Assembly: GCF_001485475.2 (NCBI RefSeq) | Contig: NZ_DF977000.1 | Location: 124,001 to 188,000 of the forward strand | DNA from: Tepidanaerobacter syntrophicus | Lineage (GTDB): Bacteria > Bacillota > Thermosediminibacteria > Thermosediminibacterales > Tepidanaerobacteraceae | Direction of reading: 5' to 3' | Length of the DNA stretch: 64,000 nt | Shown here: positions 6,170 to 38,989 of the stretch, one piece after another | Numbering within the stretch: the stretch's first letter is position 1 | How the letters are laid out: each line of letters begins with the position of its first letter | Position numbers and translations under genes: made by a program | Notes under the pieces: model-generated | Seen by the model: only the letters and a program-made list of their open reading frames with translations | The model's database searches: none | Told to the model about the DNA's origin: nothing

Positions 6170-9100
6170 GTTTCAATTCCTTATAGGTAGGCTATAAACG
6201 TCTCAACGACGAGGAAAAACCGGATTTACCGGTCATGTTTCAATTCCTTATAGGTAGGCTATAAACGTATCCGTAAAAACGAAGAAGAAGCAAAACAACT
6301 TATAAGTTTCAATTCCTTATAGGTAGGCTATAAACAAATATACATTGCTTTGTATTCTCAGTAACTCTATCTCTGTTTCAATTCCTTATAGGTAGGCTAT
6401 AAACAGTGGCTCAAAGCGCAACAGAGCCGTCCGCATGACCGTGTTTCAATTCCTTATAGGTAGGCTATAAACTTAATAAAAATCTTTCTGTAATTCTTGA
6501 GAATTGCAAGTTTCAATTCCTTATAGGTAGGCTATAAACATGAATACTTAAATTACCTAAAAGTCAACGGCAGGTCGTTTCAATTCCTTATAGGTAGGCT
6601 ATAAACGAAGCGGCCTTATTAATAGTATCCGGGCTATCTTTGTTTCAATTCCTTATAGGTAGGCTATAAACTTTCACTATGTCTTATTTCCTCGATCCAT
6701 TCTTTAGTTTCAATTCCTTATAGGTAGGCTATAAACCTTTGTGGTCTTTGTTCTTTATGCCCTGCAAATACGTTTCAATTCCTTATAGGTAGGCTATAAA
6801 CCAAAAACGCAACAAACGAAGATTTAATGGAAGCACTGTTTCAATTCCTTATAGGTAGGCTATAAACCGTTGACCCTGGTACTCCGGGTACGCTCAAATA
6901 TGAGTTTCAATTCCTTATAGGTAGGCTATAAACCTCATGCTGCACTAGTGGCAGAAGCAGGACCAGAAGCAAGTTTCAATTCCTTATAGGTAGGCTATAA
7001 ACCTTCGCCATGGCCTGTTGCTGATTTGCCTCCGATAGTTTCAATTCCTTATAGGTAGGCTATAAACTCTTTAAGGTCCGAGACTTCGCTTGCTCTGGGT
7101 CCTGCATGTTTCAATTCCTTATAGGTAGGCTATAAACTTCATTTATCTTATCTAAATGTTCGGATTCTTGGTTTAGTTTCAATTCCTTATAGGTAGGCTA
7201 TAAACTGCATTTTTGGCTGAATCAGCGAAAGCATCAAAATCGTTTCAATTCCTTATAGGTAGGCTATAAACAATGCATCGAAATCTTCCGGTTGGTCTTG
7301 TATATTCCTGTTTCAATTCCTTATAGGTAGGCTATAAACTTTTTATGACAGTGGCGGAGGAACTTCTTTTATTACGGGTTTCAATTCCTTATAGGTAGGC
7401 TATAAACGCGGATTCGAGATTCGCTATCTTTACACCTTTGCCCGGTTTCAATTCCTTATAGGTAGGCTATAAACACTGAAAGCTTCGGAGAAATATATTC
7501 TGAAAGGGCGTTGTTTCAATTCCTTATAGGTAGGCTATAAACGCAAAAAATGAAAAAAACAGTTAATTTATATAAATGTTTCAATTCCTTATAGGTAGGC
7601 TATAAACTACTGATGATTGAAAAGAAATGGGAAATTGACGAAAGTTTCAATTCCTTATAGGTAGGCTATAAACTATCGTCTTTTAAAGCATTGGGATGCT
7701 CTCTAAAAAAGTTTCAATTCCTTATAGGTAGGCTATAAACAAATTAGTTGACTTTACTTTTTTCTTTCTTTCTAATGTTTCAATTCCTTATAGGTAGGCT
7801 ATAAACTTAGCCCCCTTTATCTTCCTTAGTTCCTTTTTATCGAGTTTCAATTCCTTATAGGTAGGCTATAAACGCTTCGGCTTGTTCAGGAACTGCAAAT
7901 TATTGTATTGTTTCAATTCCTTATAGGTAGGCTATAAACTATCTTTTTGACTCCTAGATAACCTATCTAATTTAGTTTCAATTCCTTATAGGTAGGCTAT
8001 AAACAAATATCCTTCTTCGTTCCTGTTCGTGTCTGCTGAATCGTTTCAATTCCTTATAGGTAGGCTATAAACTGGATAAAGGCTTCCAAGATGTCGGCCA
8101 GGTCAGTGTTTCAATTCCTTATAGGTAGGCTATAAACATAGAAGAATAAACCCTTACGCCGTGGAACATTCCGAGTTTCAATTCCTTATAGGTAGGCTAT
8201 AAACAACTTTGGACGTGAAATTCATGTCCGCCGCCTGGTAGTTTCAATTCCTTATAGGTAGGCTATAAACGTTAAGAAATATTTTTACTCAATAGACCAT
8301 GACATTCTAGTTTCAATTCCTTATAGGTAGGCTATAAACTTGTAGCCTAATACCTGATGCTGAAACGGCGTTGCCTGTTTCAATTCCTTATAGGTAGGCT
8401 ATAAACTTGACATATCTATATCTCCATGGATGCACTCATATCGTTTCAATTCCTTATAGGTAGGCTATAAACAAATGTTCTTGTGTTAATTCTCCGTTGC
8501 TACCGCAAGTTTCAATTCCTTATAGGTAGGCTATAAACGACCTAAAGTTCAAAAGAGACCTCGCAGAAGTAACATAGTTTCAATTCCTTATAGGTAGGCT
8601 ATAAACTAATTGATGACCTTATTAAAAATGCTGAGGAAGCCTAGTTTCAATTCCTTATAGGTAGGCTATAAACGTAATTTGTATCGGCTCGTCGAAACCG
8701 GGGAGTTTGTTTCAATTCCTTATAGGTAGGCTATAAACGGTCATAACGGCCGCTTTTTTACTTAAATTTTTTAGTTTCAATTCCTTATAGGTAGGCTATA
8801 AACCTTGTAACTTGGCGAAACGCAATGGGAAGGTTATAGAGTTTCAATTCCTTATAGGTAGGCTATAAACAAATGCTAAGGAGGTGAAGCGGTTGAACAA
8901 TCGTTGTTTCAATTCCTTATAGGTAGGCTATAAACAGTATAGAAAACAATTCATTTGCAATGTAAAAATAAAGTTTCAATTCCTTATAGGTAGGCTATAA
9001 ACGAATATTGCGGATTTATATGTATTTTCCATGAAAACGCGTTTCAATTCCTTATAGGTAGGCTATAAACGTGATTAAAATTAAAATCTACGTTTTTGCC

Positions 9101-10059
9101 GGGAAAGTGTTTCAATTCCTTATAGGTAGGCTATAAACATAAAAATCCCTTGCAAAACGCAAAGACATATGCTAGTTTCAATTCCTTATAGGTAGGCTAT
9201 AAACCGAAGGGTGGCAAGGCAAAATATCTGGAAGACCCCTTGTTTCAATTCCTTATAGGTAGGCTATAAACCGAGAATTGCAAATGAAATATTAGAAGCA
9301 ATTGCGTTTCAATTCCTTATAGGTAGGCTATAAACCTTTTCCGGCTGCCATGTGCCATCCGGGTATCCGTTTAGTTTCAATTCCTTATAGGTAGGCTATA
9401 AACTTGTTCATTCTTGAGGTAGAGGCTGAAGATAGCCGGTTTCAATTCCTTATAGGTAGGCTATAAACGTAAACCAATCTCTCCAGCGTTTTCTAAAATT
9501 GAGAGTTTCAATTCCTTATAGGTAGGCTATAAACGACGACATACAGGCAAGCCTAGCAAGACAAAAATGTTTCAATTCCTTATAGGTAGGCTATAAACAG
9601 TGCCGAGAAAGGGTAAGCATCCAGATTGCCCATGTTTCAATTCCTTATAGGTAGGCTATAAACGCAAAATCACGATTTTGGTATCGTGCCTGGAACTGGA
9701 AGGTTTCAATTCCTTATAGGTAGGCTATAAACTATTTTTCCCCTGAGTGGCATATTTGCCAGCAGGTGTTTCAATTCCTTATAGGTAGGCTATAAACAAC
9801 TCCAAGTTTTCTACCTCCTTTCCAGCTTGTCAAGTTTCAATTCCTTATAGGTAGGCTATAAACATTAACAAAACCTTTGGGTGCTGTCGATTTGTATTGT
9901 TTCAATTCCTTATAGGTAGGCTATAAACGTGGCTGGCCTAAAGAAGTGGCTTGCCGTGGGATAGTTTCAATTCCTTATAGGTAGGCTATAAACGTGAACA
10001 AGCATTAGAACCTGCAATAGAGAAGCACTGTTTCAATTCCTTATAGGTAGGCTATAAAC
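6170..10059 (-). CRISPR. CRISPR array 1: 59 repeats, 58 spacers
   Basis: I count 59 copies of a 30-bp repeat that on the plus strand begins GTTTCAATTCC and ends GGCTATAAAC, at an average period of 66.6 bases (spacers mostly 35-39). Copies appear identical. The array is transcribed leftwards: the conserved leader is on the right, and in that orientation the repeat ends in ATTGAAAC, the usual 8-base crRNA 5' handle of type I-B and type III systems. First and last repeats start at 6170 and 10030. Several spacers look like phage gene starts, for example one near 8871 with AAGGAGGTGAAG before a TTG. crRNAs are probably shared by the I-B and Csx11-type complexes. Confidence 0.98.
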
Positions 10060-10326: not shown

Positions 10327-11157
10327 TTATGTTTGTATGTAAACTCCTCTTTCTAATACTCCTGGTAAATTTGCTTTACTGCCTGGCGCTAAGCATATCT
10401 TGCTTTCTTTTATTTTTGGAGTAGCTATAGAGAAATCGGCTTCTACAATAATATGTTCAATTTTCCCCATTCCAAATATCCCGTTACAGTATTCGCTATA
10501 ATTCTTTAAATACACATTTGCAATGGATTTCCCTTCTTCATCTAAGCCCCAAAATTCAAGTTCTTCTTTAGTAATTTCGCACTTTCTAATAAGTTTTATT
10601 CTGCCAAATCCATATCGGCTTTCTCCTCCGAGCGTAAGTTCTAGGCCCTCTTTAAGGAAGTGTAAAACGCTGTCAGCAACACTTTCATCATCACTAACGC
10701 TTAATAGACCTGACCAATACAAACTATTGTTAGATTCCTTCATGCCAGTCTTTGATATCGGAAGAATGACCTCAATTTCATGAAGCGATTCACGTTTAGC
10801 AGCTTGCATTGCAGGGCTAATAGCTGTAGAAATATATGTATCTGTAAATTCTACTCTAAAATCTTTTTCTGATATACTTCCCAAATAAAACAGGCCATCA
10901 ACATAAGTTGGAAATAGCGGATCTTCATTTTCTTTAAATGAGGGAAAAAAGCAAGATATGTTTTTGAATAATTCTTTGCTTACATTAAAATCTTCTTCTG
11001 TTCCTCCTAAATATCCGCCATATCTCTTAGCCAGTGCTCCCCACATTGTCCAGCCTGGAATAAAAATCCTTGTTTCAGAAAGGACACCATAATTTCCGGC
11101 ACCTATATGTATGGGTTCCATCTGTTTGAAGATTAATTTATACCATTTTTTACTCAT
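10327..11157 (-). CDS. RAMP protein of the Csx11-type III operon (Cas5-group, Cmr3/Csx10 position)
   Basis: A 276-residue RAMP protein. The first strand FKQMEPIHIGAGNYGVLSET, the following IPGWTMWGALAKRYGG and the glycine-rich loop GGESRYGFGRIKL near residue 195 are RAMP hallmarks. By elimination it should be the Cas5-group subunit that caps the crRNA 5' handle, the place of Cmr3 in Cmr or Csx10 in III-D; exact family is uncertain. The start is ATG 11157 with AGGTGA in front, overlapping the end of cmr5 by 8 bases, rather than the GTG at 11166. It is the last gene of the six-gene operon. Confidence 0.72.
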   Translation of the reverse strand: MSKKWYKLIFKQMEPIHIGAGNYGVLSETRIFIPGWTMWGALAKRYGGYLGGTEEDFNVSKELFKNISCFFPSFKENEDPLFPTYVDGLFYLGSISEKDFRVEFTDTYISTAISPAMQAAKRESLHEIEVILPISKTGMKESNNSLYWSGLLSVSDDESVADSVLHFLKEGLELTLGGESRYGFGRIKLIRKCEITKEELEFWGLDEEGKSIANVYLKNYSEYCNGIFGMGKIEHIIVEADFSIATPKIKESKICLAPGSKANLPGVLERGVYIQT

Positions 11158-11581
11158 TCTCGTCACCTAGTGCTTTTACATGATATCGTGCATAAATCAA
11201 TACTGTCTCCAATGCTTCTCTGAAAAATAAAAGTTCATGTAAATTTTCTGAGAGGTTTTGGAAGAATGCCTCATTTCTACCTTCTCTATCGCTATAATTT
11301 ATATCTTTCAACTTTTCGTCTTTTAGGTTCACATATTCCTTAAGTTCTTTTATAATATCATTAACAAATATTTTAGAATATATTTTATTATCTTTATCTT
11401 TATCTTTTGATTTGCAGAATACATAATAAGCATAGACTCCATCATTTACCAAAACGCCTAACGCTTTGTCAATATGTGCTTTTAAACCGCTTCTTTCCGG
11501 CCCCCTTGTCTCGCTAATACTCTTGAGTATATTATATCCTAACTTATTTATGACTGCGTCAAGATTTTCTTTTTTAGACAT
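11150..11581 (-). CDS. cmr5: Cmr5-like small subunit (Cas11 group)
   Basis: A 143-residue, almost entirely helical protein. The segment KAHIDKALGVLVNDGVYAYYVFCKS matches the Cmr5 pattern in which a helix ending in NG is followed by a hydrophobic helix. Cmr5 lines the target-binding channel of type III-B/C complexes. Position between cmr4 and the last RAMP gene supports the call. The stretch KSKDKDKDNK is low-complexity. Confidence 0.75.
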   Translation of the reverse strand: MSKKENLDAVINKLGYNILKSISETRGPERSGLKAHIDKALGVLVNDGVYAYYVFCKSKDKDKDNKIYSKIFVNDIIKELKEYVNLKDEKLKDINYSDREGRNEAFFQNLSENLHELLFFREALETVLIYARYHVKALGDENE

Positions 11582-11609: not shown

Positions 11610-12863
11610 TTATGAAAAAAATAATTTAGCTCGGCCAAAACCTCTTGTAGTCATGCCACCTACCCCTAAACATTCATAGTATTTTTTGCTATCCTTTAGT
11701 GCCATAACAACCTCGTTTATAGTAGGTGCAACTTCGCTTTGGCTTTCGAGCAGCCTAATATTTCCATAAAAAACAGTGCCTCGAGGTATAGCTTCGGATG
11801 TAAACAAAGCTCCTTCCTTTGCCGTCCCTGTAAGGGGATTTATTGATACTGATGTTCTAACTTCTAAGTTCGCATTAATTATATTAGATATTAAATCATC
11901 AGGAACGATTATTAGATTCTCTGATATGTTTTTCCAAGTTTCTTCTTTATTTTCGAGGTTTGGTAATGCCAATAAAATATCCTGGTTTACTGCTTCAAGA
12001 TTTAGCCAGCCTAAATTAATATAATATTTATCATTTTCATTCTCACAGTTCTTTACTATAACAGCTGTATCATCTTTAAGCAAATTTCTAAGCCTGCTAA
12101 ACGAAGATTCGCTTAAGATATCCTCCGATTTATTCATTTGTTGAAATTTAGCTTTTATTCCCGCAGATTCTAAGATGTATGGAGATGTCACCCATTTAAC
12201 GCCCAATCGAGTATATACCGGAAAAAGAAGTATATTCAAATCAGAAAAATAAGCCATCCCTTGTTGTGATCTGTTTTTCTTTGAAAATCCAAAAGTCTTG
12301 CATATTATGCAGTGGCCACAATGCCCTGTATCAGATAATTCCCTAATACTACCGACAAGGCTATCCTCATAGTTTTCATTAGCTTTATCATCTTGCCCAG
12401 CACACTTAATAGATGAGATAAGATTGCCCCAATATAATTGCCAATCATTTTTCGTTTCATTATCATTATTATTTTCATAACAGTTAGTGTTTATTGCCGA
12501 ACTTATTGCTTTGGAGTATTTCTTAAACTTTGTCATTCGTTCGCTAAAGTTTTCTCTGCGACCTGCATCGAGTTCACGGTCTGCAAGTCGATTTACCAAT
12601 TCTCTAATGTCTTCTGTAGCAATTTCGTTTCCTCCAAGAATGCTCTTTATGTTTTCAAAATTCTTTTTGTACCATCCTTGTAATTCTAATGCCATATAAT
12701 ATCTCCAGGTTCCCGCAATGCTTGAGCCTGGTATTTTTGGTATTTTTGTTATAGTATCTCTTACGATCGTATTATCTACTCTGCCAATTGTATATCCTCC
12801 TGTGCCAATAAAAATAGGGTCAGTCGATAATGCGTACATATTTAATTCTTGTTTTTCGCTCAT
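11610..12863 (-). CDS. cmr4: Cmr4-like backbone RAMP with probable target-RNA nuclease Asp
   Basis: A 417-residue Cas7-group RAMP. The N-terminus follows the Cmr4 plan: ALSTDPIFIGTGGYTIGRVD, then IVRD and PKIPGSSIAGTWRYYMA. Asp30 in GRVD aligns with the Asp that cuts target RNA in Cmr4/Csm3. A cysteine cluster GHCGHCIICKTFG near residue 185 is likely a zinc site, MAYFSDLNILLFPV corresponds to the conserved Cmr4 strand after it, and VGGMTTRGFGRAKL is the C-terminal glycine-rich loop. Several copies should form the complex spine. It is longer than ordinary Cmr4 (about 290-340), mainly from inserts at residues 60-180. Start ATG 12863 follows AAAAGGAG. Confidence 0.85.
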   Translation of the reverse strand: MSEKQELNMYALSTDPIFIGTGGYTIGRVDNTIVRDTITKIPKIPGSSIAGTWRYYMALELQGWYKKNFENIKSILGGNEIATEDIRELVNRLADRELDAGRRENFSERMTKFKKYSKAISSAINTNCYENNNDNETKNDWQLYWGNLISSIKCAGQDDKANENYEDSLVGSIRELSDTGHCGHCIICKTFGFSKKNRSQQGMAYFSDLNILLFPVYTRLGVKWVTSPYILESAGIKAKFQQMNKSEDILSESSFSRLRNLLKDDTAVIVKNCENENDKYYINLGWLNLEAVNQDILLALPNLENKEETWKNISENLIIVPDDLISNIINANLEVRTSVSINPLTGTAKEGALFTSEAIPRGTVFYGNIRLLESQSEVAPTINEVVMALKDSKKYYECLGVGGMTTRGFGRAKLFFS

Positions 12864-12880: not shown

Positions 12881-15800
12881 CTATATCTTTCTAAGAGCTG
12901 TATGCCAAAATTCATACATATCTAAAAACCGCAAAAGGCATCTCCTAAATTCATTTGGAGGCATTATTAAAATATTTTCTAACTTTGGAACAGTCGTTGC
13001 GCTATCTGTATAAGTAGGCTGTATTAATATATGTGCAAATTTATCTTTTTCATTATCTGTTTTCAGATCAAAAATATTAATAAAAGCTGATAACATAAAT
13101 TTTTTGATACTGTCCTCATCATTTCTCCAGTCATTCAATTTAGAATATATTATATTTATTATTTGGTGGAGTCCAGCAATTTTGTTCTGATCATTCCTAA
13201 AGTATTCGGCAAACTCATTAAATAGCTTCCACTCTTTCCATGTATATGGTCTATTACTTTTCCCCTCTATTTTTCTTTTTCCTTTAGAATAGCAAATATC
13301 ATTTCTGCGACAGTTAGTATCTAAAAATTCAAAATCAATTGTGTTAGGATATATTACAATTTTAGTAATGGGTTTACTATTTTTAAAGTCAACTTCACAA
13401 ATATCAGTTTTTTTGTCTTCGGGGTTTATGTACAATTGATATTCATTTTCTTTATTATTTATTGTTAGATAGAAACTGTAATAATTTGTTGGATTTTCGT
13501 TTTTTTCATAAATTGTTATATTCTTTAATGCTTCCTTTTGAATTTCTTCAATATCTAACGCTTTTCCATTCATCTGTATTTCATTCCAACTCGTTATATC
13601 TCTTCTTATTTTTCTTCCTGCTTTAATGCCAATATATAATGGTTGTTTATAGTACTGAAATATTGTTCCTATATGTAATGGTAATTTCCCAGCGACATAT
13701 TTGAAATGATTATAATACTTATTTTGAATATTACTTATGAGGCAAGGTAAGGATTGGGCGGAAATAATAAACTGCCATGAAATTGGTGTTGGATTTATTA
13801 TTGAAATATATGGCAAATATGACTCATAAGTCGCCATATCTCCACTCAAGTTAATATCTGTATATTCGCCCGTGTAGTAATCTTGAAGTAGAATGTCATC
13901 TAACCAGTCAGTATTTTTAATAGCTAATGTATCTTTTGCCTTATCTTTAAAGCTTTTTTTGACAATAATAGGTATAGCTTCTGCTATAGAAGAAATTAGA
14001 TATGCATTCCCTTTCTTGTCTATCCAAAAATCTAGTCCTTTGTAACTATATTCTTTCTCCATATACCCCCGCTCGTCGACAGCTCTATACCAGACAAGTC
14101 TTTTATATCTATAATCTTCATCGCTGATATCTAATAGACTTTTCATATCTTTACTACATTCTATAAAAAAGTCTTGAGTTGTCTCCCATATTCTTCTGAG
14201 TCTTGCGGGTGATGGATTTTTCCTTAAAACAAATTGAAGTAAAATAGTAGCAAGGAAATCCGAGTCCTCTCCATTTAGCTTATCCCAGTCTATCTTTCCT
14301 TTATCAAAATCTACTTTGACGCCAAGTTTACTTTTAATAAACTCTTCCCATCTATCCCCAATACTTCGTTCTAGTATGATATTAGCAGTAAAATCATGTA
14401 GCTTTTGATTATGAACGCCTTTATTAACATATTCTTTTAATATAGTTTCCTTAACTAATTTCCCCGCTACCGAAAAATCTTTTACCAACAGATTTTTCTT
14501 TAAATGCCAATCTATTTGATTGGTAAAAGTAGTATTTATTAGGTCTCCGTTAAGCCAGTCCTGCAACTCAAATTTTAGGGTAACTATAGCAATTCTATCA
14601 TTTGAATCTTTTAAATCTCCTGTCCAAATTGTTTCACCGTTTATATTCTTAATCCATTCTTCGATTCTATTATCCTTTCTTTCCTTACATCCATCACAAA
14701 TCATTAAGTCTTCATCACTTTTTCTTGCTAGCCGGAAGTTGCATGCCTGGCACAAACCATTGAAGTTTGAATTTGTTTTATCTTCTGTTTCTTTTAATTT
14801 TAGTGCAATACCTTTACATATCTTCTCAAAGTTATTATCAGAATCTGTTGGATAAGAAGCCTTTAAAAAATTTTCTCTACTTTTTTCTAAAAGATATGTG
14901 ATATTCATCATGCCTCGAGAAGGCTTTGTTGTAAAGATGGAGGGGTAAATTTCACCGCCAAATATTTCGCTAAAAACTTTCATAATCTTATCAGCGATTT
15001 CTTTCAAAGATTTATTTAAAGGAAAAATATAATCGCTCTTGTTCCTAAAATCACCGGCATTCTCTGGTATTATAAAATAAATTCCCGTTTCATCTCGATA
15101 TATCTCATTTCCAAGCGCATATTCCGTTTCTATTATATCTTTCACCATTTTATCAGCCTTATCTGCCGCATCTCGGTACCATTTTATAAAATGTGCCTTT
15201 AAAGCCTTTTCAGCAAGGGCTAATTTATCATATTGAACGCCAAGTATACTCCACCTTATTTTCCTGCACTTGGTATTATCTATATAATCTTTGTATTTCG
15301 ATGAGTCTAATTGAATTGCTGCAAGAGAGGCTTTGAAAAGCGACGCAGTCATATATGCCTGGTCCCACAAAGTGACATCGTTTATAGGAAATCGAGAATC
15401 GCTTAAGAGGTGTGAATACCAGTTCTTGACCTCTTCAAAAACAAAATTTCTTATTTCTATCCAATCATCATCTGAAAAATCCTCTGGTTTTCTTGGTATT
15501 GAACTTATCATCTTCCATAGATTTTTAAAAAAACAAATTCTTTGCTTATCAAGCATTTCTTCTTTTACTTCTTCTTTAAATGAGCCAAATGCATTAGAAA
15601 TCCATAGATTTTTAAGCTTTTGTTTCTCTAGAGGTTCTCCTTTGTCGATTCCGGAATTTACATTTTCGCATCCATGGAATAATATATTTTTGACAAAATT
15701 TATGACATTGAGAGGCCGCTTTTTTTCAATACCATCGCCGTATACAATATCTGAAAGAAGTAAATCTTTTTCTAGGCCAACTTTGGTATTGTAGAAAAAA

Positions 15801-16066
15801 TCAGGAAAGTCTTCATTTATCCGTTTTAAATCTTCTTTAAATCTGCTTAAATTGGGGTCTTTATTATCTGTATAATAATCTCTGTACCCAGTAAAAATTG
15901 GATATCCATATTCTGCTTCAAACGCCTTTGCATTGATGTTAAAATAATCACTCCAATGTTTGAAATTAATATGTGTCTTCCCAAGGTTAAATAAAAGTGC
16001 TCCTATCTCTGCTTTTATTATTTCCGTCTTATTCTTTTTAAGTTTTTCTAAATCCAAACTACCCAC
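12881..16066 (-). CDS. csx11: Csx11-type Cas10 large subunit, HD and GGDD sites apparently lost
   Basis: A 1061-residue Cas10-superfamily protein, most like the Csx11 branch. The N-terminal HD position reads GALLFNLGK (residues 22-30): the His-Asp pair of the usual LLHDLGK is Phe26-Asn27. A zinc ribbon with two CxxC pairs (CQAC and CDGC, about residues 437-460) matches the Cas10 finger. In the second palm domain, INPTPISWQF (about 757-766) stands where GGDD should be, followed by the Csx11-like GKLPLHIG and PLYIGIKAGRKI. If both readings hold, it has neither DNase nor cyclic oligoadenylate synthase activity and acts as a scaffold. GTG start at 16066, with AAGGTGG before it, 12 bases after the preceding gene. 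Confidence 0.82.
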   Translation of the reverse strand: MGSLDLEKLKKNKTEIIKAEIGALLFNLGKTHINFKHWSDYFNINAKAFEAEYGYPIFTGYRDYYTDNKDPNLSRFKEDLKRINEDFPDFFYNTKVGLEKDLLLSDIVYGDGIEKKRPLNVINFVKNILFHGCENVNSGIDKGEPLEKQKLKNLWISNAFGSFKEEVKEEMLDKQRICFFKNLWKMISSIPRKPEDFSDDDWIEIRNFVFEEVKNWYSHLLSDSRFPINDVTLWDQAYMTASLFKASLAAIQLDSSKYKDYIDNTKCRKIRWSILGVQYDKLALAEKALKAHFIKWYRDAADKADKMVKDIIETEYALGNEIYRDETGIYFIIPENAGDFRNKSDYIFPLNKSLKEIADKIMKVFSEIFGGEIYPSIFTTKPSRGMMNITYLLEKSRENFLKASYPTDSDNNFEKICKGIALKLKETEDKTNSNFNGLCQACNFRLARKSDEDLMICDGCKERKDNRIEEWIKNINGETIWTGDLKDSNDRIAIVTLKFELQDWLNGDLINTTFTNQIDWHLKKNLLVKDFSVAGKLVKETILKEYVNKGVHNQKLHDFTANIILERSIGDRWEEFIKSKLGVKVDFDKGKIDWDKLNGEDSDFLATILLQFVLRKNPSPARLRRIWETTQDFFIECSKDMKSLLDISDEDYRYKRLVWYRAVDERGYMEKEYSYKGLDFWIDKKGNAYLISSIAEAIPIIVKKSFKDKAKDTLAIKNTDWLDDILLQDYYTGEYTDINLSGDMATYESYLPYISIINPTPISWQFIISAQSLPCLISNIQNKYYNHFKYVAGKLPLHIGTIFQYYKQPLYIGIKAGRKIRRDITSWNEIQMNGKALDIEEIQKEALKNITIYEKNENPTNYYSFYLTINNKENEYQLYINPEDKKTDICEVDFKNSKPITKIVIYPNTIDFEFLDTNCRRNDICYSKGKRKIEGKSNRPYTWKEWKLFNEFAEYFRNDQNKIAGLHQIINIIYSKLNDWRNDEDSIKKFMLSAFINIFDLKTDNEKDKFAHILIQPTYTDSATTVPKLENILIMPPNEFRRCLLRFLDMYEFWHTALRKI

Positions 16067-16078: not shown

Positions 16079-17239
16079 TTACATATTCAAGTAGCATATT
16101 GTGTCTTTCTCTACTATGCAAGCCTTTCCCCAACCATATTTGCTTTTTGCGCCTATTCCTTCTTCCTCAAAAGAATATTGGATAAGAGTTTTTATAATCT
16201 CATAGTCATTATTTACTTGATCTTTTAACTCTTTAAATGGCAGCATTACTGCATCATAAGGTATATATATAAATTGAAAAATGCCTTCTGTGCCTTGTGG
16301 AACTACTTCAAAATAAATAGGAAAAGTCCCAGCTTTTGTATTTCTATTGTGCGGATTTATCACTTCTAGATCTAACCGGTTAAAATACGTTGGGTAGAAC
16401 ACTCCTCTACCTTTTTTAGTTTTAATTGTTTCAATATTATCTTCGAAATATTGCCATATTTGCTCCTTTATACTCTTACCTTCTTTGCTGAATATAAGAT
16501 TTATCCCTAACTCTTCTAATGCATATTTTACAACTTTAGAAGTAAGATCGATTTCGTAAGCGCTTGTTTCTATTTTGTTTTTGGAGTTTTTTTCATTTTT
16601 TACATAGTCATCAATTGCTTTTTCGATCTTGCGGAATTCTTCCGAGCCTGTACCAAAAATCCTTAAAATGCTTTGAAAATATCGGATAGCTTCTACTTCT
16701 TGATTTTTATCCATGAGTTCAGCTAACTTTTTTGAAGCTGTTTTCAGAAGCATCCCTTTCCATCCAGCTCCTCTTACCATCGGAACTTTCCATATTTTCT
16801 CTTTTAATATCGGGTTGTCAATTATATAAAAGTCCTCCATATCGCGCGAAAAATAAGGGGCTTGTAAAATAAATCTATACTGAAGCCCAAAGGAACCTGG
16901 TATAAGAGATTTAATGTAATCTTGAAGAGCGCTTTGGTTTTTAAAGATGCCAGACGATTTTTGTGCAGAGCACGCATCATTAGAGCAATACCAAAAACCA
17001 TTTTTTTCTTTTTTAAAAAAAGCTAATGGGAACTCTTGAAATTTAACTTTTTTGGGCATTTCTTTGTGCGAAATATGGCTCGTTTTTACAAACGGAAATG
17101 TATTAAGAAAATCTTCCTCTGCTAATTCTTCTACTTTTTTATCTGAACTTTTGTCAACTGTATATTTATATGAATATTTTAAAAAGAGGGCATATGGCGT
17201 TAATTCCTTTGGGCAATCATAAATAGCTTCATATTTCAT
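16079..17239 (-). CDS. cmr6: Cmr6-like RAMP protein
   Basis: A 386-residue RAMP. The phrase LDLEVINPHNRNTKAG followed by FPIYFEVVPQG matches the Cmr6 pattern MNPHY ... P-pv-F, and GIGAKSKYGWGKA near the C-terminus is the Cmr6 glycine-rich loop. KVPMVRGAGWKGMLLKTA corresponds to the IPGSSLKGALR-type RAMP segment. An N-terminal extension carries two cysteines (FWYCSNDACSAQK) and may bind metal. Cmr6 sits at the crRNA 3' side of the complex beside Cmr1. It overlaps the upstream gene by 4 bases, indicating translational coupling. Confidence 0.72.
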   Translation of the reverse strand: MKYEAIYDCPKELTPYALFLKYSYKYTVDKSSDKKVEELAEEDFLNTFPFVKTSHISHKEMPKKVKFQEFPLAFFKKEKNGFWYCSNDACSAQKSSGIFKNQSALQDYIKSLIPGSFGLQYRFILQAPYFSRDMEDFYIIDNPILKEKIWKVPMVRGAGWKGMLLKTASKKLAELMDKNQEVEAIRYFQSILRIFGTGSEEFRKIEKAIDDYVKNEKNSKNKIETSAYEIDLTSKVVKYALEELGINLIFSKEGKSIKEQIWQYFEDNIETIKTKKGRGVFYPTYFNRLDLEVINPHNRNTKAGTFPIYFEVVPQGTEGIFQFIYIPYDAVMLPFKELKDQVNNDYEIIKTLIQYSFEEEGIGAKSKYGWGKACIVEKDTICYLNM

Positions 17240-18264
17240 CGGCTCACCCCGCTTAAAAATTTTTGTAAAAGTATTAGAGAAATAAATCCATACTGATACG
17301 AATTATTTGCTGTTTTATTGATCCAAGGAATTATTTTTGTGGCATTCGGACCTTCAATATTTTGATACTTGTCACGTTTGGTAGAACCAAATATGTAGTG
17401 CCGTTTTTCTTTATCGTCTACAGCCGATCTCATATCACTTTTGTATTTAACCAACTTTTCACTTATTTTTTTATAATCGGTATCTTTGCTTCTTCCCATA
17501 ATGTATAGACCAATTTGTCTATTTTCAATGAGGCTATCTTCTAATAAGTCCTTAAAATTTGCTATATTTTCCTTCACAATCTCGCTACAATTGATTTCAG
17601 GATATCCCTTAATTTTAAAGCTATTATAAATTTCAAGATTTTCATCTTCCACTTCGAATTTTACTCTCCCATACCCAAGGTTATTTTTCCCTCCAATGAA
17701 TCCATATATTTCAATAAAATGCAATAGCGGATATATGATGGTTTTCTTTAATTCATCGCTTTCCAATTCGAGATATAAACAGAAATCCCCCCAAAAGTAT
17801 GGTTTTTCATAATACCATTTCGAAGGTTTTTGCCTCTCAATAGATTCTTTTAGAATATACTTTGGTAGCTCTAATTGATCATTTAAGAAAGAGTGGATTG
17901 AGTATTCGAGTTTCTTTATTTTTACAAAGCCACACCAGCCATTACACCCAAAGATTTGAGAAGGTAAAGAAACTTTAAGTTCTTCTAAGGATCTCTGTTT
18001 AATTTCAAAAAGTGACATACCTACTTCGTTATTTCTTTCGGCACTTGATAATATATTATATACTCCCGATTTAAACTTATTATAATCTACCTTTTCTGCT
18101 TGATAGGATTTAACATCAATCTTGCTTGATGCATAACATATCACTTCAAACCAGAATCGCAGGGAACCCATAACAGATTGAGGCTGTATGCGCTTGCATG
18201 TGCCCGAAGCGTTCCCTGTCCATAAAGGTGTTACAGTATTTACTTTGATTTTTAGTGTTGTCAA
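17236..18264 (-). CDS. cmr1: Cmr1-like RAMP protein, first gene of the type III operon
   Basis: A 342-residue RAMP. The N-terminus, KVNTVTPLWTGNASGTCKRIQPQSVMGSLRFWFEV, is the classical Cmr1 pattern (TPLxTGG ... iRppSixGalRFWfR), shown here in parts: TVTPLWTGNASG, then RIQPQSVMGSLRFWFEV. SLPSQIFGCNGWCG follows the SlFG pattern of RAMPs and GGKNNLGYGRVKFEV is the glycine-rich loop. The longer ATG reading from 18369 is rejected: TTG 18264 is preceded by AAAAGGAGGTGAACGCGAA, a near-perfect ribosome binding site. No cas6, cas1 or cas2 lies in this operon, so crRNA supply must come from the I-B genes. Confidence 0.82.
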   Translation of the reverse strand: MTTLKIKVNTVTPLWTGNASGTCKRIQPQSVMGSLRFWFEVICYASSKIDVKSYQAEKVDYNKFKSGVYNILSSAERNNEVGMSLFEIKQRSLEELKVSLPSQIFGCNGWCGFVKIKKLEYSIHSFLNDQLELPKYILKESIERQKPSKWYYEKPYFWGDFCLYLELESDELKKTIIYPLLHFIEIYGFIGGKNNLGYGRVKFEVEDENLEIYNSFKIKGYPEINCSEIVKENIANFKDLLEDSLIENRQIGLYIMGRSKDTDYKKISEKLVKYKSDMRSAVDDKEKRHYIFGSTKRDKYQNIEGPNATKIIPWINKTANNSYQYGFISLILLQKFLSGVSR

Positions 18265-18464
18265 TTCGCGTTCACCTCCTTTTGCTTTTGCAAAAATCAT
18301 AACCATGCTAATTAACTTAAAAAATATAGTTATCGTGTTTATTTTAATTTGAATACAATTTCTCAGCATCCTGTTACATTACATGCAGTGCATCTTATCA
18401 GCCTTTAGAGATATTTTGAGGTTTATTGTTTATGCAATTTTGTGCTTTATGAATTTTTGATAGT

Positions 18465-18928: not shown

Positions 18929-18929
18929 T

Positions 18930-21551: not shown

Positions 21552-21561
21552 CTTGTCTCCT

Positions 21562-23016: not shown

Positions 23017-23051
23017 AGTAAACGCCTCCTCGTTATAATAAACTTACAGTT

Positions 23052-24446: not shown

Positions 24447-24475
24447 TTTCACACCTCTTTGTAAACAAGAATTGC

Positions 24476-25241: not shown

Positions 25242-25505
25242 CTAAATAATTAAATCTTCTCCCCCTTTTCGTATTCCCATAGCTTCTCTTTCAGAATACT
25301 TGGTAGTTCGAAGTATGTAAAATATAACTGAATCCTCACTTTCTTTGATGGTTTTCTTCAGCTCAAGCTTTAATTTTTTAAAACTTGCTTCCGAAATTTC
25401 CCCTTCTAAGACAGAATTTTGAACCCATGTCAGATACTTTCGACATATTTTTAAAACCTTTGCCACTCGTTTTTCTCCGACATCATATACAACTATTACA
25501 AACAT
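25242..25505 (-). CDS. cas2: Cas2 endonuclease/adaptation protein, separated from cas1 by array 2
   Basis: An 87-residue Cas2: ferredoxin fold starting MFVIVVYDV with the metal-binding Asp8, then KRVAKVLKICRKYLTWVQNSVLEGEIS, the standard Cas2 helix-strand block, and SVIFYILRT. Cas2 bridges two Cas1 dimers during spacer integration. ATG 25505 is preferred over GTG 25514 because AAAGGGTGG lies just upstream of the ATG. It sits at the leader-distal end of array 2, 6.3 kb from cas1. A hairpin with T-run upstream (25594-25613) probably shields it from the array transcript, so it likely has its own promoter. Confidence 0.95.
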   Translation of the reverse strand: MFVIVVYDVGEKRVAKVLKICRKYLTWVQNSVLEGEISEASFKKLKLELKKTIKESEDSVIFYILRTTKYSEREAMGIRKGGEDLII

Positions 25506-25554
25506 TTTGTCCACCCTTTAAGCTTTTCTTCAATGAAATTCTTCTGTACTGTTT

Positions 25555-25583
25555 ATTATATTTTACCATATGATTTTTGTGCG
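25555..25583 (-). promoter_or_regulatory. cas2: Candidate cas2 promoter
   Basis: A perfect TATAAT on the minus strand (25555-25560) lies about 50 bases before the cas2 start; the -35 at 25578-25583 (CGCACA) is weak. Confidence 0.45.
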
Positions 25584-25593
25584 ATATAAAAAT

Positions 25594-25613
25594 AAACCCA
25601 TTAGTATGGGTTT
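25594..25613 (-). terminator. Hairpin between array 2 and cas2
   Basis: AAACCCA (25594-25600) pairs with TGGGTTT (25607-25613), with TTATTTTTATA following on the minus strand. This would stop the pre-crRNA transcript before cas2. Confidence 0.6.
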
Positions 25614-25713
25614 AAGTTCATTTTTTCCATTTAGCGACAAGCGATCCTTTGCAGACAGACTATGAACATCTCTGGCATCTCTTGCCACGCTAAAGAAGAT
25701 GGATTTAATTCCG

Positions 25714-28700
25714 GATTTAATTCCTTATAGGTAGGCTATAAACGAAGATGCACTAATAAACTTCGGCCTGCAGAAAGCGTTGTTTCAATTCCTTATAGGT
25801 AGGCTATAAACGAAATGAACTGGGGTTATTCACTCCATCCAATAGAATGTTTCAATTCCTTATAGGTAGGCTATAAACGACAGCGAAGACGTTATAACTT
25901 CGTTGTCTAGATTATGTTTCAATTCCTTATAGGTAGGCTATGAACGTAGCTTTGGTGTTAAAAGATACAGTGCCTTCTGTGTTTCAATTCCTTATAGGTA
26001 GGCTATGAACGTTGGAGCCGTTACTACTCTTACCTCATGGCAGTTCTTGTTTCAATTCCTTATAGGTAGGCTATGAACCAGGCCGCTAGGCTTAGTGCCG
26101 GAAACATACGTTTGTTTCAATTCCTTATAGGTAGGCTATGAACATACTATTAAATATGACCAAAAATAGCCTTTAAAGTGTTTCAATTCCTTATAGGTAG
26201 GCTATAAACTAATATATTATAACAATAAAAAAAGGAGTTGTAACAAGTTTCAATTCCTTATAGGTAGGCTATAAACAAATAGCAACAGATGCAATTGCGA
26301 AAAGCGCTGCCAGGTTTCAATTCCTTATAGGTAGGCTATGAACCAATAGGGGCGCTAAACGAGACCGAAAGGCAAATAAGTTTCAATTCCTTATAGGTAG
26401 GCTATGAACTTACTAAATCAGATATTAATTTATTCATTTCATCAATGTTTCAATTCCTTATAGGTAGGCTATGAACTACAGCAGCAGTTCTAACAAACAT
26501 GCTAGGGTTTGAAGGTTTCAATTCCTTATAGGTAGGCTATGAACTCTGTATCTGTAAGCTCTTAACATACTATCATCACCAGTTTCAATTCCTTATAGGT
26601 AGGCTATGAACTCTTCTCGGCTGTGCAGTCTTGTTTTTGAAAATACGTGTTTCAATTCCTTATAGGTAGGCTATGAACTATGCAACCCTTATCCCATTGT
26701 GCAACCCTTGTATGTTTCAATTCCTTATAGGTAGGCTATGAACGGCCGGACAAGCCCAAAATATACCTTTTGGGGATTTGTTTCAATTCCTTATAGGTAG
26801 GCTATGAACGGTTTAAGTGGGGCTTTGAGCAGCTTCTGTATTTTGGTTTCAATTCCTTATAGGTAGGCTATGAACGTAGTCCAGGTTCTGGTTGTAACGC
26901 ACCCTGGCAGTTTCAATTCCTTATAGGTAGGCTATGAACGTTGTCTTCCATAAATTCATACAACTCATCTTGATAGTTTCAATTCCTTATAGGTAGGCTA
27001 TGAACTTGAAGTGCTGGACAAGAATTATAATCCATCACAGGCGTTTCAATTCCTTATAGGTAGGCTATGAACCCATGCTTGCCTTGCTTTGTATATATGG
27101 GAGAGCCGCGTTTCAATTCCTTATAGGTAGGCTATGAACCCTTTGGTGTTGGTGGGCTATGTGGATGGTCAAAAGGTTTCAATTCCTTATAGGTAGGCTA
27201 TGAACCTGGAGCAAAAAATGAAGGGAGGCAGAGAAGGTGATGTTTCAATTCCTTATAGGTAGGCTATGAACACTGTGGCTGTAGGGAGGTGTTGTAATAA
27301 AGGGTAGTTTCAATTCCTTATAGGTAGGCTATGAACATGTTTGTATTTTTTGAGTAATTCCTAAAGTTTTATGTTTCAATTCCTTATAGGTAGGCTATGA
27401 ACATCATCTCTAAAGTTTGATTTAACATAACCTTTAAACCGTTTCAATTCCTTATAGGTAGGCTATGAACAGTGTGTTCAGTCCTACAGGTTTACAATTA
27501 TAATCGTGTTTCAATTCCTTATAGGTAGGCTATGAACGCCTTGCAGCCCGTGATTAATTAGGGTCTCTCTTCGTTTCAATTCCTTATAGGTAGGCTATGA
27601 ACTGGAAGAAAATCCGCAGGACCAAGACGAGATTTGAGCGTTTCAATTCCTTATAGGTAGGCTATGAACCGCCCAAGAGCATGAAGTATTTCAGGCCTAT
27701 GGCGGTTTCAATTCCTTATAGGTAGGCTATGAACGCGATCATCTGTTCATAAGCGTTGCCGCCGGCTTTTTTGTTTCAATTCCTTATAGGTAGGCTATGA
27801 ACGTACCCACTGATGTTGTTCCCATAGCAACAATACGGTTTCAATTCCTTATAGGTAGGCTATGAACGGTAAACCTTCGCGTCCCAGGTGTTACGCTCCA
27901 TGTTGTTTCAATTCCTTATAGGTAGGCTATGAACGGTTTTGAAAGGCTGCTGCCAGTCCAGCTTCGGCTAGTTTCAATTCCTTATAGGTAGGCTATGAAC
28001 CCGGGCAGCTCAACAAAGACGGTGACGGCATTTTAGTTTCAATTCCTTATAGGTAGGCTATGAACGCAGGTGAACGTATGTTTGTTGCAATCCATCGCTC
28101 AAGTTTCAATTCCTTATAGGTAGGCTATGAACCAGTAGATACATATTGGGCTGCTGATCATTCTTCTGTGTTTCAATTCCTTATAGGTAGGCTATGAACT
28201 AAATGGGTGTTCAGGTGCATTGAACACTACTTGTAGTTTCAATTCCTTATAGGTAGGCTATGAACTCCGGCTCTATGGTTACTTTGAATGATTGCCCTGA
28301 GTTTCAATTCCTTATAGGTAGGCTATGAACTAGAAATTGCCCATAGTAGTGTCAGTATTTATTGTCAGTTTCAATTCCTTATAGGTAGGCTATGAACACG
28401 ATGCACTAAAAGCAGGAGGTATACAAAACGCAAGTTTCAATTCCTTATAGGTAGGCTATGAACTGTTTGCGTGGCGTGATGTTGTTGTCAATCATGGTGT
28501 GTTTCAATTCCTTATAGGTAGGCTATGAACCGAAATTGCCCGAGCAATTGACAGATACTGTCAAGAGTTTCAATTCCTTATAGGTAGGCTATGAACGGAA
28601 GAGCCAGAGCATTATGACCATCGGGGAATATTGTTTCAATTCCTTATAGGTAGGCTATGAACTTTTTTTGTGTGTTGCGAAGAATTTCCCTATATCTTGG

Positions 28701-31606
28701 TTTCAATTCCTTATAGGTAGGCTATGAACACCAACAGCGGCCTTCTCCGGCAGAGGGCGGCATATTGTTTCAATTCCTTATAGGTAGGCTATGAACTTAT
28801 TCCATGCTGTTCTTTCTGCCGAAGTTATATGCTGTTTCAATTCCTTATAGGTAGGCTATGAACCCACGGTTTCATGAGAAACCTTGTAGACGACAAGGTT
28901 GTTTCAATTCCTTATAGGTAGGCTATGAACTTTGCACTTCTTGACCCCCTCCTTTGGGCCCCTGAGGTTTCAATTCCTTATAGGTAGGCTATGAACTTTG
29001 AACGGCTCCCAATTGATTAGAGCCGTCCGGAGTTTCAATTCCTTATAGGTAGGCTATGAACGCCACAGAGCAAAATCTTAAAAGCCTTGAGAAACAATGT
29101 TTCAATTCCTTATAGGTAGGCTATGAACATTTAGTGAGTTCTGCTTTTAGCTGGGGTAAAAATTGTTTCAATTCCTTATAGGTAGGCTATGAACTAGGAA
29201 TATGTTTATTTTTAAATACGCCAGCAGCTCTGTTTCAATTCCTTATAGGTAGGCTATGAACGACCCAATCCATAAATGCATCTGCTTTAGGTTGGCGACG
29301 TTTCAATTCCTTATAGGTAGGCTATGAACATTTAGTGTGGTTGCTGTAATTGTAAGAGTATCACCTTGTTTCAATTCCTTATAGGTAGGCTATGAACTAT
29401 ATCTGTTCATTTTATCACCGCCTTAATAGAATTCGTTTCAATTCCTTATAGGTAGGCTATGAACTTCACCTCCAATGTAAAAGCCCCCTTTCGACAGGGC
29501 AGTTTCAATTCCTTATAGGTAGGCTATGAACTCAAATATTGATGGACCAAACCGGAATATATATCAATGTTTCAATTCCTTATAGGTAGGCTATGAACTA
29601 TGACCTTTGGCTTGTCCAGTTCAATTTGGTGCTGGTTTCAATTCCTTATAGGTAGGCTATGAACTAGATTTGCTATAGTTTTAGCCATGTTCTGTATCGT
29701 GTTTCAATTCCTTATAGGTAGGCTATGAACACATTCCTGCAAATACTTGTCACTAGCATAAAGGTCAATGTTTCAATTCCTTATAGGTAGGCTATGAACT
29801 GTCCGGGGTCGGTTTTGTGTCTGTGCTTTTACCGGTTTCAATTCCTTATAGGTAGGCTATGAACTAGAAACGGGCCGGTGGGAATGATAGATGTAATGTT
29901 GTTTCAATTCCTTATAGGTAGGCTATGAACTCAGATGCACAATAGAAACACTCACGATAGAAACACGTTTCAATTCCTTATAGGTAGGCTATGAACTAGA
30001 CAGGCTGACTGCCCGTTGAAGCCGGTGGAGGAGTTTCAATTCCTTATAGGTAGGCTATGAACGACCTGCCCATTTTTTGTTAGAACACATCTAACAGTGG
30101 TTTCAATTCCTTATAGGTAGGCTATGAACAATGAGAACCGATTTGATTAGAACCAGATTTATGCTGTTTCAATTCCTTATAGGTAGGCTATGAACTTCAT
30201 ATGCAGAGCCGATATGTAAAAAAGACACTCAGTTTCAATTCCTTATAGGTAGGCTATGAACTAACAGTTACAGCCGATGAAAATCTTCTCAAAAACCTTG
30301 GTTTCAATTCCTTATAGGTAGGCTATGAACAATGGAAGGAGGGCGTAAAATGGCATGGCAAACACCGTTTCAATTCCTTATAGGTAGGCTATGAACTAGC
30401 CCGCATTTGACCCAAAGCCAGGATAATTCTGTGTTTCAATTCCTTATAGGTAGGCTATGAACTAATAACCGGTCTTCCAGGCTTACCTCTTGGCATTGTA
30501 GTTTCAATTCCTTATAGGTAGGCTATGAACTTACGCTGTAACCCATAATCGTGCCGCCGGTAATGGGTTTCAATTCCTTATAGGTAGGCTATGAACGTGC
30601 ATCCAAGGACATTTTAATCATCGCACTTCCAGGTTTCAATTCCTTATAGGTAGGCTATGAACGGAAATGAAGCCTACCTTAGCCGGTTTTTGGGAGTGGA
30701 GTTTCAATTCCTTATAGGTAGGCTATGAACGAGTTCGGGGAATATAATGGGCAATTTCTTATACAAGTTTCAATTCCTTATAGGTAGGCTATGAACTTTT
30801 GCCCTGGAAAGCAACGCCCCTAGGATGCAAAAGTTTCAATTCCTTATAGGTAGGCTATGAACGGTATACCTGCATGGGAAATACTTGCAGAGGCAATGAA
30901 GTTTCAATTCCTTATAGGTAGGCTATGAACTCAAGCCTTCCCTTCAAGTTTATCGATGATGATTGAGTTTCAATTCCTTATAGGTAGGCTATGAACTTTT
31001 TATCTTTAAGGGAGCGGTTACAAGAGGAGATAATGTTTCAATTCCTTATAGGTAGGCTATGAACTGTAAAAGCCATTTATAACCACCTCTCCCTATAAGT
31101 TACCGGTTTCAATTCCTTATAGGTAGGCTATGAACTGTATGCAAAATACTTCCCTGTATCTGCACCCCTGCGCTGGTTTCAATTCCTTATAGGTAGGCTA
31201 TGAACATGAAAAAAGAGCCCGAAGGCTCTTCTCATATTACAGTTTCAATTCCTTATAGGTAGGCTATGAACCTCCTAACTGATATGTTTTACTCTGTAAT
31301 TTTTCTGCGTTTCAATTCCTTATAGGTAGGCTATGAACTATTGAAATTCTGCTCTTCTTGTATTCTCCAATTATGTTTCAATTCCTTATAGGTAGGCTAT
31401 GAACTCAAGTTTTGGATTGCTTTCTCCATTTACCCAATCCTTGTTTCAATTCCTTATAGGTAGGCTATGAACTATTTCTTTATTCTCATCGTTATAAAGA
31501 ATTTTTCCAGTTTCAATTCCTTATAGGTAGGCTATGAACTTTCAAAAATAGTTATAATTTCTTGAACTTTAGTGTAGTTTCAATTCCTTATAGGTAGGCT
31601 ATGAAC
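25714..31606 (-). CRISPR. CRISPR array 2: 89 repeats, 88 spacers, two repeat variants
   Basis: I count 89 copies of the same 30-bp repeat as array 1, mean period 66.6 bases. Repeat 1 (25714) is degenerate at two positions near its start. Repeats 1-3 and 8-9 (26180, 26247) end in CTATAAAC like array 1, while repeats 4-7 and apparently all of 10-89 end in CTATGAAC. The leader is on the right, so the oldest units are at the left and transcription is leftwards. Some spacers hold phage-like signals, for example AAGGAGGG before an ATG (around 30331-30352) and a terminator-like hairpin (31206-31241). The array lies between cas1 and cas2. Confidence 0.98.
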
Positions 31607-31801: not shown

Positions 31802-32794
31802 TTACCATCTTGCTATAAATGCTTCATATTTTTCTTCTCCGATAAGATGCTTTTCTAATTTGTATAGCTCCATACGTATTATTCGCCGATAAGAAATATT
31901 TCTTCCTAATTCTCTGTGCTTTATTGTTGTATTTAATTTGTCTTCATACTCTTGAACAAAAGCCTTTTTGGCATTTTCTTTCATAAGCAATCCATCGGTG
32001 GTTTTCTCGAAATCATCAGCTTTTATGATGTTCCTTCCCAGCAAAGTATAAATTACCCTGTCCACTATAATTGGTTTGAAAATTTCTGATACATCTAGAT
32101 TTAAGGTAAATCGTCGAAAGTTAGTCGCGTGCAAGAATCCTATTCGCGGATCAAGATGTGTTTTATATATTTCGCTAAGGCACGTAGTATACATGAGTGA
32201 GTTGCCAAAGCTTATCATGGTATTAAGATTGTTTTTTGGTGGTCTTCTGGTTCGTTCTACAAAACTAAATTCGGGTTTTTGTATTATTTCATCAAAAGCG
32301 TCGTAATAGTATTGTCTGATATTGCCTTCAATCGCCATTAATTCATCTATCTGCAAACATTCATCAATGTGCTGTTCAAGATTATTTATCTCATTTTCAA
32401 TATCTTGTAAGTTTTTGCCACGATTAATATAATACCTTACCGCTTGTCTCATATTTTTTGATGCCCCGATAACAAATTCCTTTGCCAATTCCAGTCTTTT
32501 TTCATTATCTAAATAGTGCTCAGCTTGTTTTAAAATCATATGCCCGGAATTTAAGTGTTCTCTTGGATAGTAAGTACCAGCGTAATAGCCATAATAATTG
32601 TAAAAATGTAAGATTATTTCTGAAGTCGTTGCAAACTCAAGAAACCTTTTGTTTATATCTACTTCTCCAAAAATGTGAATTTCACTCGTGCCGTTTACTG
32701 GAATATATTTCTTGCCTGCTTCATTTTCGAAGAACAATGTATTATCTTTTCTTTTTAGTTCTCCATTAGAAAATATGTATACAGGTTTTTTCAC
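31802..32794 (-). CDS. cas1: Cas1 integrase, type I-B
   Basis: A 330-residue Cas1 with all catalytic residues: Glu156 in MAIEGNIRQ, His222 in GFLHATN, and Asp234 and Glu237 in LDVSEIFKP. The N-terminal beta domain (YIFSNGELKRKDNTLFF) is complete. It integrates new spacers next to the leader that starts 18 bases after its stop codon. It is the last gene of the I-B operon, 12 bases after cas4; the transcript may continue into the array leader. Confidence 0.97.
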   Translation of the reverse strand: MKKPVYIFSNGELKRKDNTLFFENEAGKKYIPVNGTSEIHIFGEVDINKRFLEFATTSEIILHFYNYYGYYAGTYYPREHLNSGHMILKQAEHYLDNEKRLELAKEFVIGASKNMRQAVRYYINRGKNLQDIENEINNLEQHIDECLQIDELMAIEGNIRQYYYDAFDEIIQKPEFSFVERTRRPPKNNLNTMISFGNSLMYTTCLSEIYKTHLDPRIGFLHATNFRRFTLNLDVSEIFKPIIVDRVIYTLLGRNIIKADDFEKTTDGLLMKENAKKAFVQEYEDKLNTTIKHRELGRNISYRRIIRMELYKLEKHLIGEEKYEAFIARW

Positions 32795-32806
32795 AGCAGA
32801 CCCTCC

Positions 32807-33313
32807 TTAAGCAAAACAAAATTCTGCATATGCACAGTTTTTACAAAATGGAATTTTTCTAGCTGCGGGAGGTTGTTCTAGGTATATGATTTTTAAGATA
32901 TCTTGTTTCATTTGTTCAAGTTCAGTTAACGCCTCTTCGTTTAGCAAAACTTCTTCGCGCTTTTTTTCCTCTGGAAAATAAAGTTCGCCTCTTGCCGATA
33001 TCCCATTTTCTTTCAAAATTGATAGATAAAACAGCAGCTGCATTCTTGCTGCAAGCTTAAATTTACTGCTCTTTTTTACTTCACCTATCACAATCTGTCC
33101 ATTGTCCATCTTTAGTATATCAAGTTTAATATTGCCTATCTGCATCTCTTTCTTTTCACGCTGGTAAGAACTTTCATTAATAAATCTGCCAATCTCTATG
33201 AATTCATTTTCTTGGTCAGCCACGATGCTCCGAGCTATCAGCCAAGCTTCTCTCTTGCATACACAATAGTACCAAATCAGTGTGCCATTAATTTTAACAT
33301 CTTCTGCAGACAT
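32807..33313 (-). CDS. cas4: Cas4 RecB-like nuclease
   Basis: A 168-residue Cas4. The N-terminal Cys of YYCVCKREAWL and the C-terminal trio in FCKNCAYAEFC hold the Fe-S cluster; GNIKLDILKMDNG, IGEVKKS and AARMQLLFYLSIL are RecB nuclease motifs II, III and QhxxY-like. Cas4 trims prespacers and enforces PAM selection with Cas1-Cas2. It lies between cas3 and cas1 as usual in I-B. Confidence 0.95.
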   Translation of the reverse strand: MSAEDVKINGTLIWYYCVCKREAWLIARSIVADQENEFIEIGRFINESSYQREKKEMQIGNIKLDILKMDNGQIVIGEVKKSSKFKLAARMQLLFYLSILKENGISARGELYFPEEKKREEVLLNEEALTELEQMKQDILKIIYLEQPPAARKIPFCKNCAYAEFCFA

Positions 33314-33389
33314 TAGGCATCACCTTTCTTGCTATTTTCGTTTTTTTAAAACAGCAATTCTTCTGGCATGGGGTAAAAAAGCTTTCATG

Positions 33390-35630: not shown

Positions 35631-35633
35631 TAT

Positions 35634-36383: not shown

Positions 36384-36411
36384 TTCCCTCCCTTTGCTTA
36401 ATGAATTTTCC

Positions 36412-38980: not shown

Positions 38981-38989
38981 ATGCTTAAT

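Follow-up and report, generated by a model that had tools for sequence, protein, structure and literature searches.

What can a type III CRISPR complex still do when its Cas10 subunit carries neither of the active sites that normally produce an interference signal? The question is raised by an operon of Tepidanaerobacter syntrophicus that lies in a window of 64,000 nucleotides (the whole stretch of DNA that was analysed), within a bacterial genome of 2.43 Mb in 9 contigs. An earlier note on this DNA had claimed that the HD nuclease and GGDD sites of the large subunit, a Csx11-type Cas10, have both been replaced, that the surrounding folds are kept, and that the system might rely on RNA cleavage by its Cmr4-like backbone.

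The operon, its arrays and the neighbouring type I-B system

The genes run on the minus strand in the order Cmr1-Cmr6-Csx11-Cmr4-Cmr5-Cmr3 and constitute, by PADLOC profiles, a complete III-C operon (Table 1). All six are intact and close-packed, each overlapping its neighbour or separated from it by 28 bases or less; the gene order is conserved in relatives, and PADLOC E-values range from 4.3e-75 for Cmr1 to 3.7e-33 for Cmr5. The listed open reading frame of cmr1 probably starts too early, as homology begins about 35 codons inside it. A zinc finger or other special domain in the N-terminus of Cmr6 was considered and rejected, since that region is not conserved.

The large subunit is Csx11, as judged from NCBIfam TIGR02682 (E=1.6e-153, 513 bits against a cut-off of 249) and from the PADLOC profile of the III-C Cas10, Cas10c (E=1.3e-125), and it is the only Csx11 in the whole genome. 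Membership of this family, the presence of Cmr1, Cmr3, Cmr4, Cmr5 and Cmr6 in the operon and the replacement of GGDD identify the system as type III-C (PADLOC CAS-III-C). The system resembles the III-B Cmr complex of P. furiosus in its backbone subunits, in the Cas10 fold and in the catalytic Asp of Cmr4; it is set apart from III-B by the Csx11 family, by the missing GGDD and by the genome-wide lack of a match to the Cas10/Cmr2 Palm family PF22335.

Table 1. Features of the III-C operon, the CRISPR arrays and the type I-B genes, in window coordinates.
Feature	Coordinates	Strand	Basis or description
csx11 (Cas10 large subunit, type III-C)	12881..16066	(-)	1061 aa, GTG start; TIGR02682, PADLOC Cas10c, AlphaFold model
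cmr1	17236..18369	(-)	PADLOC Cmr1 E=4.3e-75; alignment
cmr6	16079..17239	(-)	PADLOC Cmr6 E=9.5e-73
cmr4 (Cas7 backbone, predicted RNA-cleaving)	11610..12863	(-)	PADLOC Cmr4 E=5.4e-46
cmr5 (small subunit, Cas11)	11150..11581	(-)	PADLOC Cmr5 E=3.7e-33
cmr3 (Cas5)	10327..11166	(-)	PADLOC Cmr3 E=2.5e-67
Csx11 F26-N27, replacing the His-Asp pair of the HD nuclease	15986..15991	(-)	Alignments; codons TTT (F26, 15989-15991) and AAC (N27, 15986-15988)
Csx11 E134..N137, for Asp..Asp of the second HD motif	15656..15667	(-)	ENVNSGID vs D..DSAD
Csx11 Q236, for the HD-domain His	15359..15361	(-)	LWDQ vs LWDH
Csx11 zinc ribbon, C439-x2-C442...C457-x2-C460	14687..14752	(-)	Four Cys in 26/26 clade members
Csx11 central helical module, residues 508-612	14231..14545	(-)	Short form; exchangeable between relatives
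Csx11 T760-P-I-S763, replacing Palm2 GGDD	13778..13789	(-)	Family alignment, profile alignment, AlphaFold model
Cmr4 catalytic Asp30 (GRVDNTIVR)	12774..12776	(-)	Invariant in Cmr4 alignment
CRISPR array 1	6170..10059	(-)	59 repeats, all identical and 30 nt long; the leader adjoins cmr3 at the high-coordinate end
CRISPR array 2	25714..31606	(-)	89 repeats; repeat and leader nearly the same as in array 1
cas2 (type I-B)	25242..25514	(-)	PADLOC Cas2b E=3.6e-37
cas6-cas8b-cas7-cas5-cas3-cas4-cas1 (type I-B)	31802..39739	(-)	PADLOC

The 3' end of the repeat, in the minus-strand reading, is ATTGAAAC, which we take to be the usual 8-nt crRNA tag. Within the type I-B system, array 2 has cas2 on one side and cas1 on the other (window 25242-31784). 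In 84 of its 89 repeats it differs from array 1 by a single base (TATGAAC as against TATAAAC), the others being four repeats of the array-1 type and one degenerate repeat, and the two leaders are about 93% alike. The type I-B gene set is complete and the HD and Walker motifs of its Cas3 are intact (MHDFG, GSGKT, DEIQ). Comparison of the array 1 spacers with phages gave no match, and the one marginal match of an array 2 spacer (Erwinia phages, E=1e-3) was judged to be due to chance. Unlike most III-C loci, which are without an array (PMC12669027), the operon in the window adjoins one. On its other side the operon is flanked by what looks, by eye, like a glutamate mutase/methylaspartate (mesaconate) fermentation cluster (18617-24898).

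Two dismantled sites in a retained Cas10 fold

The AlphaFold model of Csx11 (pLDDT 81, pTM 0.87) superposes over residues 14-1061 on Csm1/Cas10 structures, with a Z score of 18.8, 582 aligned residues and an rmsd of 4.4, and the zinc ribbon cysteines C439, C442, C457 and C460 are all present; the Cas10 fold is thus retained, as had been claimed.

At the HD site, codons and alignments both give Phe26-Asn27, in agreement with the earlier note, and three further metal-site motifs are also changed. All 31 HD-positive relatives have H-D at positions 26-27. E134 and N137 occur in 26/26 members of the clade to which the window Csx11 belongs (see below), where 23/31 HD-positive relatives carry D/D; Q236 likewise occurs in 26/26, as against His in 23/31, and the HH motif is absent both from the window Csx11 and from 26/26 clade members. 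The HD metal site is therefore altered at four places (H26, D27, D134/D137, H236) throughout this clade, and F26/N27, E134/N137, Q236 and the lack of HH set the window protein outside the HD-nuclease-active Cas10 proteins. Moreover, N27 recurs in 16 of the 26 clade members, mostly within LFNLGKT, which indicates that the replacement is neither a chance event nor a sequencing error.

At the Palm2 site, a profile of 24 Csx11 sequences aligns the helix 'vlVPAekal' with 'AILPVDKAL' of P. furiosus Cmr2. Since the GGDD of Cmr2 ends at D673/D674 (PMC7192623), this alignment places GGDD exactly on T760-S763, with an inferred offset in construct numbering. In the model these four residues lie in a strand-loop-strand hairpin that precedes the helix 770-791. 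Family alignment, the Cmr2 profile alignment and the model thus all put TPIS at the GGDD position, near residue 760 as first proposed. Structure prediction and alignment with Csx11 and Cmr2/Csm1, which the earlier note had suggested as a check, hence show that both sites are lost within a Cas10 fold that is kept, and the aligned sites of the window Csx11 show neither an intact HD nor an intact GGDD pair.

Distribution, selection and module exchange in the family

Csx11 relatives were gathered from 398 genomes of the host's own phylum and, by means of a Cmr4 alignment, from GTDB species genomes; a single-protein scan of genome contigs had given no relatives, and the Csx11 sequences diverge too far for their alignment to serve in a scan. 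GGDD was found in 0/80 Csx11 sequences that cover the hairpin. Among the 67 with an N-terminus the HD pair is present in 31 and missing in 36, a proportion that is not a prevalence estimate because the search was seeded with a window-like Cmr4. In published surveys, III-C loci are without cyclase sites and known effectors and half of them have a recognisable HD (Hoikkala et al. 2024, PMC11229360); III-C is likewise classed as cyclase-inactivated (Makarova et al. 2025, PMC12669027).

Taken with these reports, the survey leads one to expect a double loss in about half of III-C, and the loss of GGDD throughout Csx11 makes the absence of cyclic oligoadenylate (cOA) signalling a III-C rule. The reading of this protein as an unusual double loss does not survive the comparison, as the GGDD result agrees with both reports and the HD result with the first (PMC11229360). 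The Palm of the window Csx11 is ordinary for III-C and its N-terminus is that of a common HD-less branch, the dismantled HD site being a difference from III-C generally that is published for about half of the subtype. The value of the case lies in a pseudoenzyme state that is clade-wide and selected, and in the biology of III-C.

In a tree of 66 sequences, from which the HD columns were left out, the HD label requires at least 5 changes, 4 of them forced by well-supported branches, against a mean of 22 when labels are shuffled. The window Csx11 falls in a 26-member clade (SH-aLRT 100) with 0/26 HD-positive members. Its nearest relative, from a Candidatus Syntrophopropionicum MAG, is 61% identical over the compared columns. 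The clade's hosts include Bacillota, Thermotogota, Thermodesulfobacteriota, Campylobacterota, Aquificota, Cloacimonadota, others and one Methanocaldococcus bin (an archaeon); many members are MAGs, and contamination may explain some of the taxon assignments. Another species of the same genus (L046, genome G002) carries a quite different, HD-positive Csx11, so that III-C systems appear to move horizontally.

The synonymous sites between the window Csx11 and its nearest relatives are saturated, and dN/dS was therefore estimated from other pairs within the clade. The dead HD region gave 0.17, 0.18 and 0.19 in three pairs; for the dead Palm2, which allowed an estimate in two of these pairs, the values are 0.085 and 0.118. 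Two HD-positive control pairs behave alike, with 0.19-0.32 for HD and 0.15-0.24 for Palm2. One further clade pair, L089/L081, looks recombinant and its dN/dS is uninterpretable. The dead domains of these relatives are thus under purifying selection, which by extrapolation would hold for the window Csx11 too, and the loss of the sites is not a matter of decay. Several of the replaced motifs are now conserved in their own right: E134, N137, S138, G139 and P761 do not vary within the clade and conservation of Q765 is also at least 0.96; positions 26 and 27 vary, between F/A/I/S and N/L respectively.

The dead N-terminal domain takes two forms in the clade, A (LFNLGKT, as in the window) and B (e.g. 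ALWDKV, in many cases shorter). When the tree is built from the remainder of the protein, this label changes 7 times, hardly less often than under shuffling (mean 8.2, with 127/500 shuffles as low). For most of window-equivalent residues 300-500 and 600-1061 the Csx11 proteins of L089:72-3773 and L081:5613-8972 show 81-94% identity, and they share only about 25-36% over residues 1-200 and 32% over 501-600. A second pair, L094:5529-8966 and L096:610-4323, shows 85-100% identity over most of its length and differs in a single central cassette, of which one protein has a short and the other a long form. In Cmr5 of L089/L081 the ends are near-identical and a middle segment has been replaced. These alignments indicate that the N-terminal domain and the central module (L089/L081), or the central module alone (L094/L096), have been swapped between relatives; MAG assembly artefact may account for some cases, and two independent pairs show the swapping.

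The central module is helical and lies between the zinc ribbon and Palm2. Pfam and PDB fold searches with it were negative or below any cut-off; a known enzyme fold and a relation by fold to viral proteins were both rejected for want of a significant match.

Remaining activity and alternative explanations

Each Cmr4 that has its N-terminus on the contig carries the catalytic Asp of the G-x-VD loop; a motif pattern search overlooked four truncated copies as well as four in which the loop varies and the Asp is retained, two of these being a single contig counted twice. With D30 intact, RNA cleavage by the Cmr4 backbone is, on the sequence evidence, the only recognisable activity that would remain, as had been proposed. 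The III-C gene set is retained wherever the contig is long enough, L064 alone being without a recognised Cmr1. Genome-wide searches for Csx1 HEPN and Csx1 CARF gave no match, while the controls matched, so that the earlier observation of a missing Csx1 effector extends from the window to the genome and is in line with lost signalling. The system may have a regulatory role, which the note had also raised, and the findings here lend it no support.

The account that we favour, and consider reasonably probable, is that of a crRNA-guided III-C complex with Csx11 as a pseudoenzyme, whose interference would consist of RNA cutting and would most plausibly form a second layer beside type I-B. In such a complex Csx11 would keep the Cas10 fold, with neither DNA cutting nor cOA synthesis, and would probably cap the crRNA tag and hold Cmr3, Cmr5 and the backbone together. 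The crRNAs would come from the shared arrays, be matured by the Cas6 of the adjacent type I-B system and be loaded into the complex, which would bind matching transcripts and have them cut by its Cmr4 subunits through Asp30. Type I-B Cas3 would destroy DNA, and III-C would add its RNA cutting probably on RNA targets or alongside I-B. In favour of this account are the loss of both sites within a kept Cas10 fold, the Asp of Cmr4, the selection on the dead domains, the retained gene set, the lack of a Csx1 or another Cas10 Palm match in the genome, the identical repeats of array 1 and the intact I-B system with Cas6 and Cas3. Against it count the spacers, which gave no credible phage target, and the clade-wide adjacency to type I genes (9/21 loci), which is not enriched over that in HD-positive III-C (10/25); the idea that doubly dead III-C is tied to type I genes nearby was rejected.

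A main output of RNA cleavage by Cas7 domains, without Cas10 enzyme activity, is also predicted for III-E and III-I (Cas7-11). However, III-E is a fused Cas7-11 with no Cas10 and III-I has a much reduced Cas10, whereas the Cmr complex encoded in the window has several subunits and a dead Cas10 of full size. Other Palm-inactivated type III systems keep HD and have lost the Cas7 aspartates (PMC12669027), a division of labour opposite to that in the window. In P. furiosus III-B, unlike the window Csx11, both HD and GGDD of Cmr2 are active, and mutating both abolishes anti-plasmid immunity (PMC7192623). This engineered double mutant suggests that RNA cutting alone does not give immunity, and it may therefore not protect against DNA elements. 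A widespread natural clade with dead Cas10, its dead domains under selection, would allow one to test cleanly whether guided RNA cutting is enough by itself for immunity; in the literature searched there was no assay of any III-C complex.

The exchange of modules points to a partner or an antagonist of Csx11, and one might guess that it serves to evade inhibitors or to take on a different partner. Csx11 of this clade could be a platform for an effector encoded elsewhere in the genome, with the HD-derived domain and the central module as docking surfaces; binding of target RNA would activate that partner. The strong conservation of the remodelled sites, the purifying selection on dead domains and the exchange of two modules between near-identical proteins, as for an interaction surface, are all consistent with this. 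However, no recurrent accessory gene was found around the clade's loci except type I-B cas genes, and nothing recognisable came from the fold searches with the central module; a platform is, on balance, unlikely. A related proposal, in which dead Csx11 would be a pseudoenzyme hub that swaps its N-terminal and central modules and a variable Cmr5 patch in order to change partners or escape inhibitors, with an output other than DNase or second messenger, is regarded as quite unlikely.

A new catalytic activity of the remodelled sites or of the central module might be read from clade-specific conserved polar residues such as K18, Q278, K281, E286, D305 and Q611. It is improbable, given that there is no metal-binding or known nuclease motif, that the fold searches gave nothing above a cut-off and that positions 26/27 vary as a catalytic pair would not. 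That the system is non-functional or decaying, as the broken loci of some relatives might suggest, is most improbable in view of six intact, close-packed genes with homologues across phyla, dN/dS below 1 in relatives and a large adjoining array with identical repeats.

Two side observations concern the wider family. Csx11 appears as several fragments in L071 (Thermoanaerobacter thermocopriae) and L062 (a Hydrogenothermaceae MAG), so that broken III-C loci seem to occur. In L045, L052, L035 and L042, all outside the window's clade, the III-C operon lies in or beside a BREX cluster (BrxC/PglY, PglX, BrxHI, PglZ), the order in L045 being BrxC-PglX-[III-C]-BrxHI-PglZ.
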